Made by a program: the position numbers and the translations under genes. 45,031 nt of DNA, taken from assembly GCF_000213975.1 (NCBI RefSeq), contig NZ_GL892076.1, positions 548,219-593,249 on the forward strand, in the 5' to 3' direction. This stretch comes from Centipeda periodontii DSM 2778. GTDB lineage: Bacteria > Bacillota > Negativicutes > Selenomonadales > Selenomonadaceae. Positions 6,432-38,468 of the stretch are shown here, in pieces (the stretch's first letter is position 1; each line of letters opens with the position of its first letter). The notes beneath the pieces are model-generated. The model did not search any database and had not been told where the DNA came from. It worked only from the letters and a program-made list of their open reading frames with translations.

Positions 6432-7109
6432 TTACACGAGGTCCACGCGCAGCACGCCGTCGATCTGGCGCAGGGTATCTACAATAAATGTAGGTTTCAG
6501 ATGCTCACCGTTATACACCTCGAAGTTGAGGTACACGCGCCGCTCGCCGACGGTCTCCGCCTCGTCCTCATCCGTCTTTACCTTGACGCCGCGCGAGCGC
6601 AGGTGGAGATCCTCGATGCAGGCGCTGATGCGCATGATCTGCCCCGGTCGATCGACGGTGTGGATGGAGAGCGAGAGCATGTGATCGTGGTCGACCCATG
6701 CGTCGAGGCGCGAGAGGTTGCCGAGGATCAAAAAGACGATCGCCGTCGTCACGCCCGCACTCAGATAAAAGCCCGCACCGACCGCGAGTCCCACACCTGC
6801 GACCACCCAGAGCGTCGCCGCCGTCGTGAGACCCGTGACCGTGAGCCCCTCCTTCATGATCGCGCCCGCGCCGAGAAAGCCGATGCCGCTTACCACCTGT
6901 GCCGCAAGCCGCGCAGGATCCGCATTCGTCTTCCCCTCGACGTGATCGTAGAGCGCCTGCGACATGAGCATGATCAGACACGATCCGAGCGCGACCAACA
7001 TATTCGTCCTGAGACCTGCCGACTTGTGTCGCATCTGACGCTCGTAGCCGATGATGCCGCCCATCGCGCAGGAAAGCACAAGACGCAGGCAGATTTCCCA
7101 TTCTTCCAT
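6432..7109 (-). CDS. MgtC/SapB family inner-membrane protein
   Basis: A 225-residue membrane protein. The first 140 residues hold hydrophobic helices with the family motifs GGIIGYERQ and GIGFLGAGAIMKEG. The last 85 residues form a soluble ACT-like regulatory domain. MgtC proteins are linked to growth at low magnesium and to membrane potential control; other members are simple membrane proteins of unknown role. The start at 7109 (MEEWEICL) has GAAGGGA upstream. A longer frame to 7175 would run into the DnaA-box cluster and is not preferred. Confidence 0.88.
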   Translation of the reverse strand: MEEWEICLRLVLSCAMGGIIGYERQMRHKSAGLRTNMLVALGSCLIMLMSQALYDHVEGKTNADPARLAAQVVSGIGFLGAGAIMKEGLTVTGLTTAATLWVVAGVGLAVGAGFYLSAGVTTAIVFLILGNLSRLDAWVDHDHMLSLSIHTVDRPGQIMRISACIEDLHLRSRGVKVKTDEDEAETVGERRVYLNFEVYNGEHLKPTFIVDTLRQIDGVLRVDLV

Positions 7110-7165
7110 CGGTAAAAATTCCCTTCTGTCTTTTATAATTTGATGAAATCCACAACCTGAGAAAG

Positions 7166-7434
7166 TTATCCACACCTGTGCAGAACTCTGTGGATAAAAT
7201 TGTTCAAAAGGCTGAAATCACCTTTATCCACATAGTTTTACACAGTGTGCATAATTTTTCCGAACGCTCTTCCATTTTCTGTGGATAATGTGGATAAAAC
7301 AGTGGATAACACCATATATTGAATAAAAAAATGCTCTGCATTCCATATTTTGTACTGTGGAGAAGTGTATTTATCCACAGTTTTGCAGGAAAGCACAGGG
7401 ATTATTTTGCACTGGATCGGTGCATTTATCCACA
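7166..7434. other. DnaA-box cluster distant from dnaA
   Basis: Seven exact 9-mer boxes (TTATCCACA or its complement) lie at 7166-7174, 7189-7197, 7224-7232, 7280-7288, 7289-7297, 7371-7379 and 7426-7434. TTTTACACA (7236-7244) and TGTGCATAA (7246-7254) also fit TTWTNCACA, and 7301-7309 has one mismatch. The 353-bp gap between the MgtC start and the CYTH stop contains nothing else I can name. Most leftward genes lie to the left and most rightward genes to the right. No DnaA-trio run was seen, so this looks like a DnaA-binding, titration or relict origin site. Confidence 0.85.
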
Positions 7435-7462: not shown

Positions 7463-7936
7463 TCAGCACTCATCCGCTGTCCATGTATTGTAAGGACGTG
7501 CGATCAGAGCTGCGTTGTAGTACCGTTCCTCTCCCGTCACCTCCGCGCCAACCCATGTGGGACACACAAATTCCTCCGTCTCGGAGATCAGCTCAATTTC
7601 CGCAACAACGAGCCCTTTGTTCGCCCCGTGAAAAACATCCACCTCCCAGCGCTTTCCGGCAAACGGCTCCACATAGCGCGTCTTTTCCACAAGCGGAGGA
7701 TCGCAGAGCGCGAGCAGCTCGCGCGCCTCCTCCACGGGGATCTCGTACTCGTACTCAAGCCGTTTGGCGCCGCGCGTTTCCCCCTTGATCGTCAGGAATC
7801 CCTGTATACCTGCTATTCGGATTCGTACGATTCGCTTCGGATCACGTGAGAGATAGCCCTGAGCTATTTCAATACCGACGCCTGTCGGTCGAAAATCTTC
7901 CTTTACCTTGAATTTTCGTTCGATTTCCACGCCCAT
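7463..7936 (-). CDS. CYTH domain protein
   Basis: A 157-residue protein whose N-terminus MGVEIERKFKV carries the ExExK-type signature of the CYTH fold (adenylate cyclase CyaB/thiamine triphosphatase). Alternating charged strands follow, with RIRI, LTIKG and EYEYEIP, as expected for the tunnel that binds organic phosphates and divalent metals. Bacterial members often hydrolyse inorganic tripolyphosphate; the substrate here is unknown. Its transcript would run into the DnaA-box cluster. Confidence 0.87.
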   Translation of the reverse strand: MGVEIERKFKVKEDFRPTGVGIEIAQGYLSRDPKRIVRIRIAGIQGFLTIKGETRGAKRLEYEYEIPVEEARELLALCDPPLVEKTRYVEPFAGKRWEVDVFHGANKGLVVAEIELISETEEFVCPTWVGAEVTGEERYYNAALIARPYNTWTADEC

Positions 7937-23275: not shown

Positions 23276-24021
23276 CGGGATCCGTCCTCTTTCCGAGAGA
23301 GGAGCGCGCCTGCCGCATGATCGACGATCAGCGTCACATTCGGGTGCAGCTGGAGAATGGAGGCGGGTACCGACGGCGTGATCGTCCCCTCCACCGCATC
23401 GCGCACCGCCTCCGCCTTCTCCGCACCGCTCGCGAGCAGGACAATGTGACGTGCGTGGAAGATCGTACCGATCCCCATACTCATCGCCTCGCGCGGCACC
23501 TCCGCCGCCGATGCGAAGAAACGCGCATTTGCCTCGATCGTGCTCTCCTTCAGTGCAACCTTGTGCGTCGCTTTTGCGAACGCCTCGCCCGGCTCGTTGA
23601 AGCCGATATGTGCATTCCGCCCAATGCCGAGCAGCTGCATGTCGATGCCGCCCGCCGCCGCAATCCGCGCCTCATAGTCCTCTGCCTCGCGCTCCGCATC
23701 CTCTGCCATACCGTTCGGAAAGAAGATGTGGTCCCTTCGCATATTCACATGGTCGAAGAGATTTTCGTACATAAAATGATGATAGCTCTGGGGATCCTCC
23801 ACCGTGAGCCCGACATACTCGTCCAGATTGAACGAGGTCGCCTGAGAGAAGTCGAGCCCCACCGTCTGATACAGCCAGACCAGATTCTGATACAGCTCGA
23901 CCGGCGTGCTGCCCGTTGCAAGCCCGAGCACAGAGTCCGGCTTCACCCAGAGCTGCCCCGCGATGATCTTCGCCGCCTCCTCGCTCATCTTCTTATAGGT
24001 ATCCGTAAAAATAATACGCAT
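23272..24021 (-). CDS. nagB: Glucosamine-6-phosphate deaminase
   Basis: A 249-residue deaminase/isomerase producing fructose-6-phosphate and ammonia. It shows LATGSTPVELY (phosphate site), FNLDEYVGL with the catalytic Asp, GIGRNAHIGFNEPG, and a C-terminal HAAGALLS. The start at 24021 (MRIIFTDTYK) follows GAGGGGAG. It is the first gene of the sialate/amino-sugar cluster. Confidence 0.96.
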   Translation of the reverse strand: MRIIFTDTYKKMSEEAAKIIAGQLWVKPDSVLGLATGSTPVELYQNLVWLYQTVGLDFSQATSFNLDEYVGLTVEDPQSYHHFMYENLFDHVNMRRDHIFFPNGMAEDAEREAEDYEARIAAAGGIDMQLLGIGRNAHIGFNEPGEAFAKATHKVALKESTIEANARFFASAAEVPREAMSMGIGTIFHARHIVLLASGAEKAEAVRDAVEGTITPSVPASILQLHPNVTLIVDHAAGALLSRKEDGSR

Positions 24022-24062
24022 CGCGATACTCCCCTCTATGTATCTGTTCTGAATTCTCCTAT

Positions 24063-24091
24063 AATATAACACACTTCAAACTAAAATGCAA
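24063..24091 (-). promoter_or_regulatory. Promoter of the nagB-nagA-nan cluster
   Basis: On the minus strand TTGCAT, 17 bases, TATATT, with a start near 24056 and a leader of about 35 nt. The upstream AT-rich stretch (24090-24150) has a near-palindrome around TATCTAAGATA that could be an operator; that part is a guess. Confidence 0.6.
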
Positions 24092-24209
24092 TTATTTTTC
24101 ATAATATCTTAGATAATTTTTTATTTCACATGATATAGGAAAATATTTTTCGTTTTATATAATGAATGGAATGAAAGGGGCTGTTGCACGAACGCCCCCA
24201 AAAACGTCA

Positions 24210-24238
24210 TTGAAAAAGAACGAAGCGTGTGCTATGAT
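24210..24238 (+). promoter_or_regulatory. CRISPR leader promoter, copy 1
   Basis: TTGAAA, 17 bases, TATGAT with TGC before the -10. The same promoter block (ACGTCATTGAAAAAGAACGA onward) recurs at 25181, 26545 and 29136. Here the rest of the leader is missing and the first repeat starts only 8 bp after the -10. Confidence 0.7.
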
Positions 24239-24245
24239 GAAGTAG

Positions 24246-24354
24246 ATCTCGATACACACATTGCCGCGTGCGGCATTGAAACAAACCTGCGCCGAAGTTA
24301 CGGATGTTCACATTGATGTCCAGACACACATCATGCTGCGTGCGGCATTGACAA
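24246..24354 (+). CRISPR. Remnant CRISPR array 1 (one spacer)
   Basis: Two degenerate 37-nt repeats (24246-24282 and 24318-24354) around one 35-nt spacer. The repeat core GCCGCGTGCGGCATTGAAAC is intact in the first; the second ends in ATTGACAAC, as the last repeat does in array 2. The array is followed by the same hairpin and TTGACG element as the larger arrays. No cas gene is near. Confidence 0.85.
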
Positions 24355-24423
24355 CAAAACGGCTCTACGTGTCCACATCGGTCACACAGAGTCGCTTTCG
24401 TATGCAAAAAGCGCACAGCAATC

Positions 24424-24429
24424 TTGACG
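24424..24429 (+). promoter_or_regulatory. Orphan -35 of the antitoxin-type promoter after array 1
   Basis: TTGACG in the same context as at 25723 and 29743 (followed by ATGCGG), but the -10 region is replaced by ATTTCG. The element is broken at about 24446. Confidence 0.6.
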
Positions 24430-24442
24430 ATGCGGTGCACAG

Positions 24443-24604
24443 GATGATTTCGCAGTGTTTGCGGCGCGCCATAACCTCACCCACGCAGAGGTGGAGGTTA
24501 TGCGGTACTGCTTCTTTCTGCCTCCTGAAGAACGCGCCGCCCTCCTTGCCGAAAAAGAGGCTGTCGCAGCCTCCTCCTCTACCGCCGCCGCAAAACGGGT
24601 ATAA
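24443..24604 (+). pseudogene. 3' fragment of an unidentified gene
   Basis: An open frame without a proper start reads HNLTHAEVEVMRYCFFLPPE and then an Ala/Ser-rich end to a TAA at 24602. It has protein-like composition, and the 5' part appears to have been replaced by the array-1 3' flank. An internal ATG (about 24500) could give a 34-residue peptide. I do not recognise the family. Confidence 0.4.
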
Positions 24605-24639
24605 AAAAGCCGCCATCGTAGGCGGCAGGAAGGACACCT

Positions 24640-24882
24640 ATGGACATAAAATATGCCAAAACCGCTGTGAAAACCATCGGGAGCATAGATAAGGCGATGA
24701 AACAACGCCTCAAAAAAGCGATTGAGGATTTGCCAAAAGGCGACGTAAAACGACTCAAGGGAAGCGATTCACTATATCGGCTGCGCGTCGGCGGTTGGCG
24801 CATTGTGTTCTCTCTTCCTGATACAAATACGATTCTGATTGAGAAAATCGCCCCACGCGGGGATGTCTACAAAGGAGGCTGA
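24640..24882 (+). CDS. RelE/ParE-superfamily toxin
   Basis: An 80-residue toxin of the RelE/ParE fold. The fold-typical C-terminal half is LYRLRVGGWRIVFSLPDTN followed by IEKIAPRGDVYKGG, with basic residues where mRNA interferases bind RNA. The ribosome binding site is AGGAAGG, and a GCCGCC...GGCGGC hairpin lies just upstream. It precedes its antitoxin gene by 5 bp: the toxin-first order also seen in HigBA-type pairs. Whether it cuts mRNA or poisons gyrase cannot be told from sequence alone. Confidence 0.85.
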   Translation: MDIKYAKTAVKTIGSIDKAMKQRLKKAIEDLPKGDVKRLKGSDSLYRLRVGGWRIVFSLPDTNTILIEKIAPRGDVYKGG

Positions 24883-24887
24883 TTGAT

Positions 24888-25091
24888 ATGACTGTAAAAG
24901 CACAGATTGTGGAGATGATTGATTTTGTTCCCGCCCGTGAACTTCCCATTATTTTGGAGGTTGTCAAGCGTTTCATACCAAACGATGCCGATGACCGTAT
25001 GACGGAGGATGACTTGAATGCCCATCGCCGCGCCATGCAGGAGTATAAGAACGGGGAAACGGTTTCTCATGATGAAATTAACTGGGATTGA
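24888..25091 (+). CDS. Antitoxin partner of the RelE/ParE toxin
   Basis: A small acidic protein of 67 residues, starting MTVKAQIVEMIDFVPARELP and ending EYKNGETVSHDEINWD. The last part resembles the C-terminal toxin-binding tails of antitoxins paired with RelE/ParE toxins (GETxSHDEI). No DNA-binding domain is obvious. Start and operon position leave little doubt about pairing. Confidence 0.75.
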   Translation: MTVKAQIVEMIDFVPARELPIILEVVKRFIPNDADDRMTEDDLNAHRRAMQEYKNGETVSHDEINWD

Positions 25092-25180
25092 CGACTCATC
25101 GGACGAAACTACCGCCTCCTAGTCCAATCAAAAAATCCGCCATCGTAGGCAGCAGAAAGGAGAACGCATGGACAATATCA

Positions 25181-25323
25181 TTGAAAAAGAACGAAGCGTG
25201 TGCTATCATAGAGGAGAAGGAAATGGAAAGTGCTCTGGCGTTGGCGTAAAGCCGCATTCCGCCGTTTCGTCTTTCCAAAACGCCTTCTCAGCCCGCGCGG
25301 GACAAGGGCTGCGGGACACAGGA
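25181..25323 (+). promoter_or_regulatory. CRISPR leader and promoter, array 2
   Basis: The promoter TTGAAA (25181-25186), 17 bases, TATCAT (25204-25209) with extended -10 is followed by a leader of about 110 nt, closely related to that of array 3. The leader includes AGAGGAGAAGGAAATGG and a CAGCCC...GGGCTG hairpin. The left border is joined to a second, truncated copy of the sequence upstream of the RelE/ParE toxin gene (about 25131-25176). Confidence 0.75.
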
Positions 25324-25652
25324 ATCCCGACACACACAATGCTGCGTGCGGCATTGAAACACAGTTGGCAGATAAAGTATCTGCGATTCGTATTGATATC
25401 CCGACACACACAATGCTGCGTGCGGCATTGAAACGCGTCTTTCATGATTGTTTCCTCCTATAGTTATAGATGTCCCGACACACATAATGCCGCGTGCGGC
25501 ATTGAAACCCTCGGCGAGGTCACGATCGAAATCAGGTTTGCTGTCCCGACACACACAATGCTGCGTGCGGCATTGAAACATCATGCATATAATCATGACG
25601 TGATTAGCTGTTTTGGTCCTGACACATACAATGCTGCGTGCGGTATTGACAA
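25324..25652 (+). CRISPR. CRISPR array 2 (5 repeats, 4 spacers)
   Basis: Repeats of 37 nt start at 25324, 25398, 25472, 25543 and 25616. They begin GTCCCGACACACA (first two with A), have a central palindrome AATGCYGCGTGCGGCATT and end ATTGAAAC, the usual crRNA 5' handle. The spacers are 37, 37, 34 and 36 nt. The last repeat is degenerate (GTCCTGAC..., ...GGTATTGACAAC), which with the leader fixes transcription on the plus strand. No cas gene is in the window, and the subtype cannot be assigned. Confidence 0.97.
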
Positions 25653-25653
25653 C

Positions 25654-25696
25654 AAAACGGCTCTGCGTGTCCACATCGGTCACACAGAGCCGTTTT
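25654..25696 (+). terminator. Array 2 hairpin terminator
   Basis: AAAACGGCTCTG pairs with CAGAGCCGTTTT around a 19-base centre. It directly follows the last repeat and is conserved after all three arrays. Confidence 0.75.
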
Positions 25697-25722
25697 CGTA
25701 TGCGAAAAGCGCACAGCAATCC

Positions 25723-25751
25723 TTGACGATGCGGCGCACAGATGGTAGTAT
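25723..25751 (+). promoter_or_regulatory. Antitoxin-type promoter after array 2
   Basis: TTGACG, 17 bases, TAGTAT with TGG before the -10. It matches the promoter at 29743, which drives the antitoxin RNA of toxin copy 4. Confidence 0.7.
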
Positions 25752-25757
25752 AGAGAT

Positions 25758-25845
25758 ACAAAAAGGGCACTGCCGTAGTCGGCTCCCCAATAATAGGATG
25801 AAATTTCCGCCTACTGTTTGGAAGCTGAAGGCGGATTTTTCTTAT
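25758..25845 (+). ncRNA. Orphan antitoxin-like RNA
   Basis: An RNA of about 88 nt would start with AAAAAGGGCACTGCCG, the same 5' block as the antitoxin RNAs of copies 1 and 2, and end in the hairpin TCCGCCT...AGGCGGA plus T run at about 25805-25840. Downstream only the last few codons of a toxin gene survive on the opposite strand, so the RNA has no local target. Confidence 0.6.
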
Positions 25846-25924
25846 TTATCGTCGAACGACGATCATCAATAATGAAATACTTCTATATGCTTCAAATATA
25901 TTATTGTTTTAAGGAGGTTTTCAA

Positions 25925-26203
25925 ATGACGAAGGATATTGTCATATCAATGGACGAGGAATTGAAGTCGAACTTTGAAGAAGTCTGTGCAGATATTGGAA
26001 TTTCTGTCCCTTCTGCCATTATGATTTTCGCCCGCCGTGTAGCAAGAGATCGTAAAATTCCATTCGAGCTTACGGCATCCCCGCGCCTCTCTGATCCGTT
26101 CTATTCGGAAAGCAATATGGCTCACCTGCGCCGCGGGATCGAAGATTTTAAGGCAGGGAAATTTCAGCGGCATGACTTGATTGAGGTTGCAGACGATGAA
26201 TAA
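25925..26203 (+). CDS. RelB/DinJ family antitoxin
   Basis: A 92-residue antitoxin. The N-terminal ribbon-helix-helix has VISMDEELKSNFEEVCADIG; the C-terminal part IEDFKAGKFQRHDL is the usual toxin-wrapping tail. A strong site AAGGAGG precedes the ATG. Its stop overlaps the start of the YoeB gene. RelB-type proteins bind their own promoter; the AT-rich gap upstream (25846-25920) would be the operator region. Confidence 0.88.
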   Translation: MTKDIVISMDEELKSNFEEVCADIGISVPSAIMIFARRVARDRKIPFELTASPRLSDPFYSESNMAHLRRGIEDFKAGKFQRHDLIEVADDE

Positions 26204-30815: not shown

Positions 30816-32927
<2,112 letters not shown>

Positions 32928-36549: not shown

Positions 36550-36604
36550 ATGCGTTCCTTTCCGGAGTTTTCTGGGGGCAGGCTCCCGTTTTCTATGGGT
36601 ACTG

Positions 36605-36769
36605 TGTTATATATAAATATAGTAGTCGTAGTAGTAGGGGCTGTGGATTTGTGGAAAAGTGGAAAAACGCCTGAAAAATCAAAGAGCTGGTTGTGGATAA
36701 ATTAGGGGAAGTTATTTCTTAGTTATCCACAGTTTACACAGATGAGGAGTGGATGAAATGTTATCCACA
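36605..36769. other. Origin unwinding region (DnaA-trio) in the dnaA-dnaN gap
   Basis: An AT-rich stretch ATATATAAATA is followed by TAG repeats (36620-36637, five TAG and one TCG), a GGGGC block and adjoining DnaA-box-like sites (TGTGGATTT 36642, TGTGGAAAA 36650-36658). This matches the known order unwinding element, DnaA-trios, GC spacer, boxes. Further exact boxes lie at 36692-36700, 36723-36731 and 36761-36769. A solo MITE end (36829-36852) lies beside the dnaA stop. Confidence 0.75.
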
Positions 36770-36853
36770 AAACGTCCACATGAAATGAGGTGGGAAATGA
36801 ACAGGGATATGCACAGGTTAAGGAAGCACTGATAAATTCAGCAGCATCATCTC

Positions 36854-38362: not shown

Positions 38363-38468
38363 TTATCCACAGAGTTATTCACAGCTGTGGATAACATTGT
38401 CGATGAAAAGGATTCGATTCTATGCACAGATGTGAAATTATACACCTTTTTTTCACAGGTTTTCCACA
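38363..38468. other. Origin DnaA boxes upstream of dnaA
   Basis: Exact boxes lie at 38363-38371 and 38386-38394, with TTATTCACA at 38375-38383, TTTTTCACA at 38449-38457 and TTTTCCACA at 38460-38468. A dnaA -10 (TATAAT on the minus strand, 38437-38442) lies among them. Genes diverge here, dnaA leftward and rpmH rightward, as is typical of bacterial origins. Confidence 0.85.

Follow-up and report, generated by a model that had tools for sequence, protein, structure and literature searches.

A conserved DnaA-box cluster near oriC of Centipeda periodontii that carries an NrdR-type box pair, and its possible role as a DnaA-titrating control locus

The DnaA-box clusters of Bacillus subtilis are said to be called oriC-proximal in the title of a 2012 paper by Okumura et al. 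Deletion of all six clusters leads to early initiation, according to the text available from two sources (PMC5295017, PMC13220808), and the available part of a review assigns the clusters no significant role in initiation (PMC5295017). In Escherichia coli, the site datA is reported to require IHF, and DARS2 to require both IHF and Fis, in the sections available (PMC5742627, PMC10380432). NrdR sites are described, in excerpts of the literature, as two 16-bp palindromes that lie 31-32 bp apart (PMC2892513, PMC12176259), and E. coli NrdR reportedly binds only when it is loaded with dATP plus ATP or ADP (PMC12176259). Within the accessible portions of the open-licence literature, no NrdR site is described at a DnaA-box cluster outside of ribonucleotide reductase (RNR) promoters; little is said about DnaA control in Negativicutes or Selenomonas, and no paper is about such a site as judged from titles and the beginnings of abstracts.

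The locus described here occupies positions 7166-7434 of a 45,031-nucleotide stretch of DNA, which is referred to as the window (C1:548219-593249 of G000, the 2.76-Mb genome of C. periodontii DSM 2778, in 8 contigs). A sequence-only reading of the window had listed seven exact and two consensus-variant DnaA boxes in 270 bp, and all nine were found as stated: the exact boxes (TTATCCACA) start at 7166, 7189, 7224, 7280, 7289, 7371, and 7426, and the variants are TTTTACACA at 7236 and TTATGCACA at 7246. Weaker boxes at 7177, 7201, and 7301, which that reading overlooked, complete regular arrays. The features of the cluster and its two neighbors are as follows:

7166-7209, both strands: module A, with boxes 7166-7174 (+, exact), 7177-7185 (-, TTCTGCACA, weak), 7189-7197 (-, exact), and 7201-7209 (-, TTTTGAACA, weak)
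7224-7254, both strands: three DnaA boxes, 7224-7232 (+, exact), 7236-7244 (+, TTTTACACA), and 7246-7254 (-, TTATGCACA)
7280-7309, minus strand: module B, head-to-tail, with boxes 7280-7288 and 7289-7297 (exact, abutting) and 7301-7309 (TTATCCACT)
7309-7324, no strand assigned: NrdR-type box 1, ACACCATATATTGAAT, which has base 7309 in common with the third module B box
7340-7355, no strand assigned: NrdR-type box 2, ATTCCATATTTTGTAC, which begins 31 bp after the start of NrdR-type box 1
7371-7434, plus strand: outer DnaA boxes, 7371-7379 and 7426-7434, both exact in G000
6432-7112, minus strand: mgtC, the left neighbor (Pfam PF02308), directed away from the cluster, with its start taken at 7112
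7463-7936, minus strand: gene of a CYTH-domain protein, the right neighbor (Pfam PF01928), with its 3' end toward the cluster

The window holds 12 exact boxes versus 0.14 expected from shuffled sequence, and none of 100 shuffles reached 12. The whole genome of G000 contains 34 exact boxes (5 for the reversed control), seven of which sit in the single gap of approximately 350 bp between mgtC and the CYTH gene. The dnaA-dnaN gap has three exact boxes and the gap upstream of dnaA has two, so the cluster is, as had been claimed, denser than either side of dnaA. Seven exact boxes in 269 bp, all in one gap outside of oriC, is also the arrangement expected of a B. subtilis-type cluster. The cluster is a weakly paired duplex that falls in the top 0.7 percent of window positions among the least stable 60-bp stretches; instability was rejected as its telling feature, as ranks 1-7 of the window fall elsewhere. 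A search of the cluster for RNA families returned three matches only, with E-values of 0.29-0.91, all far under the gathering scores.

Conservation between strains had been set beforehand as a test, and the cluster gap was matched in all 14 genomes of the genus. When the 14 gaps were aligned, columns of the consensus boxes were 0.90 identical to G000 and the other columns 0.55, and none of 352 shifted masks equaled the identity of the box columns. Box 7166 is exact in four of the 14 genomes and reads TTATCCCCA in seven, boxes 7189, 7224, and 7280 are each exact in 11, and TTATGCACA at 7246 is present in 10. The second box of module B, at 7289, is exact in 10 genomes, and the third has the same letters in 13. 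The outer boxes vary more freely: 7371 reads TTATCCACA in eight genomes and TTGTCCACA in six, and 7426 is exact in G000 only and absent in five. The sequence-only reading had entertained a relict of the origin before rearrangement. The boxes do sit between genes, some 5 kb from mnmG (gidA), a gene which adjoins oriC in E. coli according to the review text available (PMC5295017), but they are under strong constraint with free spacers across many genera, and this conservation contradicts a relict with no present function and makes it exceedingly improbable.

The cluster was also followed beyond the genus by means of its neighbors. Among the best 80 of 311 mgtC loci in named genomes, the closest relatives of the G000 gene are from oral Selenomonas (96-97 percent). 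Twenty-six of these 80 loci carry 2-6 exact boxes within 700 bp upstream; the 54 with no exact box within 700 bp upstream (three of which have less than 700 bp upstream) are remoter homologues (63-68 percent), mostly from rumen MAGs and some from genomes named Selenomonas. With the LCP gene as an anchor, at least three boxes were found within 400 bp upstream in 32 of 67 genomes and 15 of 30 genera; this survey comprised 70 loci from 67 of 71 genomes (without G051, G052, G057, and G072), two of the loci being short (103 and 474 bp). Ten further genera were sampled through a two-box pattern in 20 genomes, and 11 of the resulting places were examined. Boxes are present in a gap without LCP in genera g3, g7, and g23, where either cdd or mgtC and CYTH, or cdd alone, flank them, and weakly in g6; in g30 a box cluster lies at another place, 8 kb from dnaA. 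Altogether, clusters of this kind occur in 20 of the 30 genera sampled (one weak, one elsewhere), and the other 10 were without one at the places looked at, five of them (g2, g13, g18, g20, and g28) having been sampled only upstream of LCP.

The g30 group consists of 4-5 DnaA boxes approximately 8 kb from dnaA (L278:3380-3546 in G063 and L279:3221-3398 in G042), two genes from an rsmG-like gene, and is perhaps a replacement cluster; an NrdR pair was not detected in the g30 genome G042. In two genera that lack the cluster, box groups at other places were likewise seen: in L268 (G031, g19), with an NrdR pair of 30.4 bits, and in L285 (G021, g9).

In the window, the cluster lies 29-31 kb from dnaA. 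The distance is 15-61 kb in all 11 of the 14 genus genomes that have both on one contig; in G012 it would be about 32 kb if the contig closes to a circle, and in G008 and G010 cluster and dnaA are on different contigs. Measured from the start of LCP, dnaA is 15.0-57.3 kb away in the 18 genomes (five of them from the genus) where one contig holds both dnaA and a cluster anchored at LCP, and the distance from cluster to dnaA is 11 kb in G044 and 22 kb in G064. Across genera, the one-contig cases mostly place the cluster 8-61 kb from dnaA. The exceptions to this oriC-proximal position, which in the genus is as in B. subtilis-type clusters, both come from outside the genus: the cluster of G022 is on another contig, at least ~361 kb from dnaA as estimated from the lengths of the contigs, and a weak cluster in G046 is 207 kb away. 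One candidate generalization, that the cluster is lost when LCP leaves the origin region (cluster present in 18 of 21 genomes with LCP near and in none of six with LCP far, p 0.0003, or 0.0014 when G022 is included), was dropped as proof because it is confounded, the cluster staying without LCP in g3, g7, and g23. G035, scored in that test as near with no cluster, carries the cluster on another contig.

Two features of the window mark the dnaA region itself:

36550-36853, no strand assigned: dnaA-dnaN gap, the oriC core, with boxes at 36650, 36692, 36723, and 36761 and a DnaA-trio at 36620-36637 (TAGTAGTCGTAGTAGTAG)
38363-38394, both strands: three-box module upstream of dnaA, with boxes at 38363 (+), 38375 (+), and 38386 (-), the geometry of module A in the other orientation

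The dnaA-dnaN gap is ordered boxes, DnaA-trio, AT-rich stretch, as is the oriC of B. subtilis. A trio run of at least 3 is present in this gap in 14 of 14 genus genomes, and the run is 2 or less in 31 of 31 distal clusters (14 from the genus and 17 sequences from the S. ruminantium group), in agreement with the earlier remark that the cluster has no trio; this comparison used the dnaA-dnaN gaps, and whole 3.5-kb dnaA loci, about 10 times the cluster length, gave the same result. The GC-skew check that had been proposed for an origin at the cluster came out against it: across 240 kb that include the window, the cumulative skew is lowest at window position 30,959 and shows no minimum at the cluster, but it stays almost level between about -30 and 31 kb. 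The claim that gene direction changes roughly at the cluster is only loosely true. The genes mnmG, nanM, a flavoprotein gene, mgtC, and CYTH are on the minus strand, and LCP, malic enzyme, and gyrA are on the plus strand, but a minus-strand gene (glycosyltransferase 41 family) stands between malic enzyme and gyrA, and the clean switch of gene direction is between dnaA (minus) and yidC (plus). The cluster is not a second origin, and the boxes and trio of a Bacillus-type oriC are those of the dnaA-dnaN gap.

Two box arrangements of the cluster were searched for in other genomes. Module A is an inverted box pair whose starts are 23 bp apart, with a weaker box in between (starts of all four boxes at 0, 11, 23, and 35). 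Its outer pair, TTATCCACA-N14-TGTGGATAA, was found in 83 of 151 family genomes with a reversed control of zero, in one or two copies per genome and three in G034; the pattern is palindromic, hence each place appears on both strands in the pattern scan. The copies whose surroundings were read, a subset of the total, are located upstream of dnaA or in the distal cluster. Outside the family, module A with the middle box occurs in four f15 genomes, where it adjoins dnaA in all cases. Module B comprises two abutting boxes and a third 12 bp further. In a scan of 250 genomes of the class, 21 had its strict pattern: 19 family members, each at one place, and, outside the family, G181 and G211. Genomes of the S. 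ruminantium group also have a near-exact abutting box pair in the dnaA-dnaN gap. The cluster thus shares box arrangements with each half of oriC but lacks the part that unwinds. An extra conserved element, TTTCCTACTATAATATATA, lies between modules A and B in clusters of the S. ruminantium group (L030-L043) and was not found in the gap alignment of the oral genus.

These repeated arrangements could be taken to mean that the cluster is a third part of oriC that loops to the dnaA region, all the more as the inverted triple is present upstream of dnaA, a near-exact abutting pair is found between dnaA and dnaN in S. ruminantium-group genomes, the cluster ranks with the least stable 60-bp stretches in the window, and the oriC of B. 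subtilis is reported to form loops in the review text available (PMC5295017). A third oriC part, which the sequence-only reading had also put forward, is unsupported by the features tested and quite improbable: the cluster has no trio, the skew minimum is at 30,959, the AT-rich part is 5' of the module B boxes, on the opposite side compared to the dnaA-dnaN gap, and the distance to dnaA varies from 11 to over 60 kb.

Module A also resembles the DARS sites of E. coli. The cores of K-12 DARS1 and DARS2, as computed here, have boxes at 0 (+), 14 (-), and 26 (-), which agrees with the layout of the DARS core in the literature available (PMC5742627). In module A of the window, as in both DARS, box I is opposed to boxes II and III, and the II-III distance is 12 (DARS literature in the parts available: PMC5742627, PMC10380432); all 17 sequences of the S. 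ruminantium group, moreover, retain the exact outer pair. The I-II distance, on the other hand, is 11 in module A and 14 in DARS (0, 11, 23 versus 0, 14, 26), and because of this 3-bp difference module A was not filed as a DARS. The likeness to DARS therefore holds for order and orientation, but not for one spacing, nor for the first box (7166), which is exact in only four of the 14 genomes of the oral genus. Furthermore, the weak middle box of the S. ruminantium group is oriented oppositely relative to its flanks, and thus the module is turned there; the same module geometry upstream of dnaA means that it is not special to the cluster; and there appears to be no clear Hda (one Bac_DnaA match in G000), whose product a DARS would undo. 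A DARS-like site, at which the inverted three-box module would make DnaA release ADP, is therefore improbable.

Next to module B, a conserved pair of AT elements approximately 31 bp apart, overlooked in the sequence-only reading, corresponds to an NrdR-type pair. A matrix was built from the E. coli nrdH, nrdD, and nrdA promoters, whose six boxes form pairs exactly 31 apart, and 240 kb were scanned with this E. coli-derived matrix for pairs 31 apart. The highest score (31.0 bits) belongs to a pair immediately upstream of an nrdD gene (Pfam NRDD) and the second (25.4 bits) to window 7309-7355; the third is 15.3 bits. A matrix was used instead of a strict pattern because cores and spacing vary: a strict NrdR-core pattern at fixed spacing, which was rejected, matches only two of 14 genus genomes. 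Across 52 clusters, the boxes are 31 bp apart in 35, 30 bp in 13, and 32 bp in 4, so that the spacing, 31 bp in the window and 30-32 overall, is that of an NrdR operator; as to the other mark of such an operator, a place in the promoter of an RNR operon, no RNR gene was among the neighbors identified. The pair shares exactly one base with the end of the third module B box in 42 of the 52 clusters.

In the genus alignment, identity is 0.912 in the 10-bp NrdR cores, 0.906 in the DnaA boxes, 0.500 in the rest, and 0.292 in the 15-bp spacer between the NrdR boxes, and of 73 ways to place two such blocks clear of the boxes, the NrdR one comes first. When spacings of 30-32 are allowed, the best pair has p < 0.05 against Markov shuffles in 57 of 61 clusters given and in 16 of 20 genus groups, with p values that are mutually dependent and some significant scores that are low (6-10 bits); p was not below 0.05 in g6, g11, g27, and g30. 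The 61 clusters do not include G063, nor G028, G054, and G070 (genus-16), for which the named S. ruminantium group stands. At spacing 31 alone, 46 of 49 clusters given have p < 0.05, the best pair in several of these being other than the conserved pair, which has spacing 30 or 32. The nrdR gene was found in 14 of 14 genus genomes.

An NrdR pair raises the question of transcription control, in which DnaA and NrdR would repress or time the mgtC-cdd operon or another neighbor, as at RNR promoters. NrdR is a known repressor at promoters, in the text available (PMC12176259), the cluster is upstream of mgtC or cdd in many genera with the gene directed away from it, and cdd acts in nucleotide salvage. 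In addition, the other group of three exact boxes outside of oriC precedes an nrd operon with an NrdR pair. The neighbors of the cluster are not constant, however, and the cluster is kept where they differ: mgtC was not found beside it in several genera, nor CYTH in others, nor LCP in g3, g7, and g23. In three genomes from two genera (G022, G050, and G034; g10 and g22), a fructose-type PTS gene on the left has its 3' end toward the cluster, the 3' end of CYTH points at it from the right, and the boxes and the NrdR pair are retained between these convergent gene ends. Between the PTS gene and the boxes of L129 (G022) stands a terminator-like stem-loop with a T run, recognized by eye. Given the convergent ends, the cluster is no ordinary promoter.

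In G000, some 197 bp and ten boxes, weak ones counted, separate the NrdR pair of the cluster from the mgtC start, whereas the pair at nrdD of G000 ends 13 bp before the start codon. Two candidate promoters lie between the boxes versus 1.1 expected, which is not above chance, and a TTGACA-like stretch (by eye) is present in some relatives and not in all. A role as the promoter of one particular gene does not account for the locus, and transcription control as its general role is rather unlikely; the locus may be a promoter in some genera, as it is still upstream of mgtC or a cytidine deaminase gene in many.

The second box group of G000, at C1:96901-97100 (L101 6901-7100), is the sole other place outside of oriC with three exact DnaA boxes within 150 bp. 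Its NrdR pair is 32 bp apart and lies ahead of an nrd operon; DnaA and NrdR sites thus recur together in G000. The anaerobic ribonucleotide reductase of this genome looks split: L113:8417-10681 encodes a 754-aa NrdD that covers Pfam positions 1-532 of 562, and approximately 580 kb from it L101:7173-7457 encodes a 94-aa protein that covers Pfam positions 532-562 only (the glycyl-radical end) and adjoins a radical-SAM frame. Both parts have NrdR pairs upstream.

With respect to other regulators of DnaA, YabA was not matched in any of the 14 genus genomes by a search that did find it in the controls, B. subtilis and Lactococcus. Bac_DnaA had one match in G000 and nine others, and a second, weak match (38-44 bits) in four of 14, which suggests that the genus has no clear Hda. 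Control of DnaA through DNA sites would consequently weigh more in these genomes. Two further observations concern other DNA. L283:2830-2903 (G044:C19) has five exact DnaA boxes in one direction beside a plasmid-replication-like gene (by eye), and is perhaps the origin of a mobile element. Window positions 24001-26000, between gyrA and gyrB, have a G+C content of 0.46-0.47 versus ~0.6 around them and may be acquired DNA.

Of the roles that the sequence-only reading had offered, titration or a datA/DARS-like function is best supported, by conservation, the usual nearness to oriC, absence of a trio, and independence of the neighbors. From the sequence, its conservation, its fixed geometry and position, and the presence of nrdR, we propose, with a probability of roughly 55%, that 7166-7434 is a conserved DnaA-binding control locus near oriC that titrates DnaA and has a built-in dATP-sensor site. 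DnaA would assemble on the box arrays, above all on head-to-tail module B, which would leave less free DnaA in the cell. Because the locus is close to oriC, it would be copied soon after initiation, and the doubled DnaA sink would delay re-initiation, a mechanism that has been proposed for the clusters of B. subtilis. The predicted NrdR pair would alter the binding of DnaA on module B according to the dATP level, either by competing with DnaA for the shared base or by altering the shape of the DNA, as IHF and Fis do at E. coli datA and DARS2; this putative role is suggested by the binding of E. coli NrdR to its pairs only with dATP plus ATP or ADP. NrdR could thereby do the work that IHF does at datA and that IHF and Fis do at DARS2. 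A nucleotide checkpoint of initiation, in which dATP-loaded NrdR beside and partly over the DnaA triple box, at a non-promoter locus close to oriC, would set the amount of DnaA held there, is a tentative extension of this proposal and, on balance, doubtful.

The locus bears on how bacteria adjust replication initiation to their supply of DNA precursors. It joins the site type of a dATP-responsive regulator to a DnaA-box array in a near-fixed register, in many genera and with no promoter role required, and adds an origin-side DnaA site in Negativicutes. If such a checkpoint exists, it would tie DnaA availability directly to the dNTP pool in a lineage in which neither YabA nor a clear Hda was found, and the cell may in this manner link the supply of building blocks to the start of replication.

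Among known systems, the RNR promoters of E. coli (nrdHIEF, nrdDG, and nrdAB) share with this locus two NrdR boxes 31 bp apart, and Salmonella nrdAB also carries DnaA boxes, according to the text available (PMC2892513). They differ in that no RNR gene was found adjoining the cluster, and its NrdR pair is distant from start codons and, in three genomes, between convergent gene ends. E. coli datA is likewise a DnaA-box cluster outside of oriC with a second DNA-binding protein, which at this locus is predicted; datA has an IHF site where the locus has an NrdR-type pair, and the arrangement of the boxes is different. To our knowledge, E. coli has no locus of this kind, and its own sites differ. 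Loss of nrdR there left initiation synchrony undisturbed, in the portion of the report available (PMC12075136). The clusters of B. subtilis, in which early initiation upon deletion has been read as sensitivity to free DnaA in the accessible text, are similar as DnaA-box clusters that are outside of a bipartite oriC and oriC-proximal. B. subtilis, however, has YabA, for which the genus studied here gave no match, and unlike its clusters the boxes described here form one composite locus with a fixed inner geometry and an attached NrdR-type pair.
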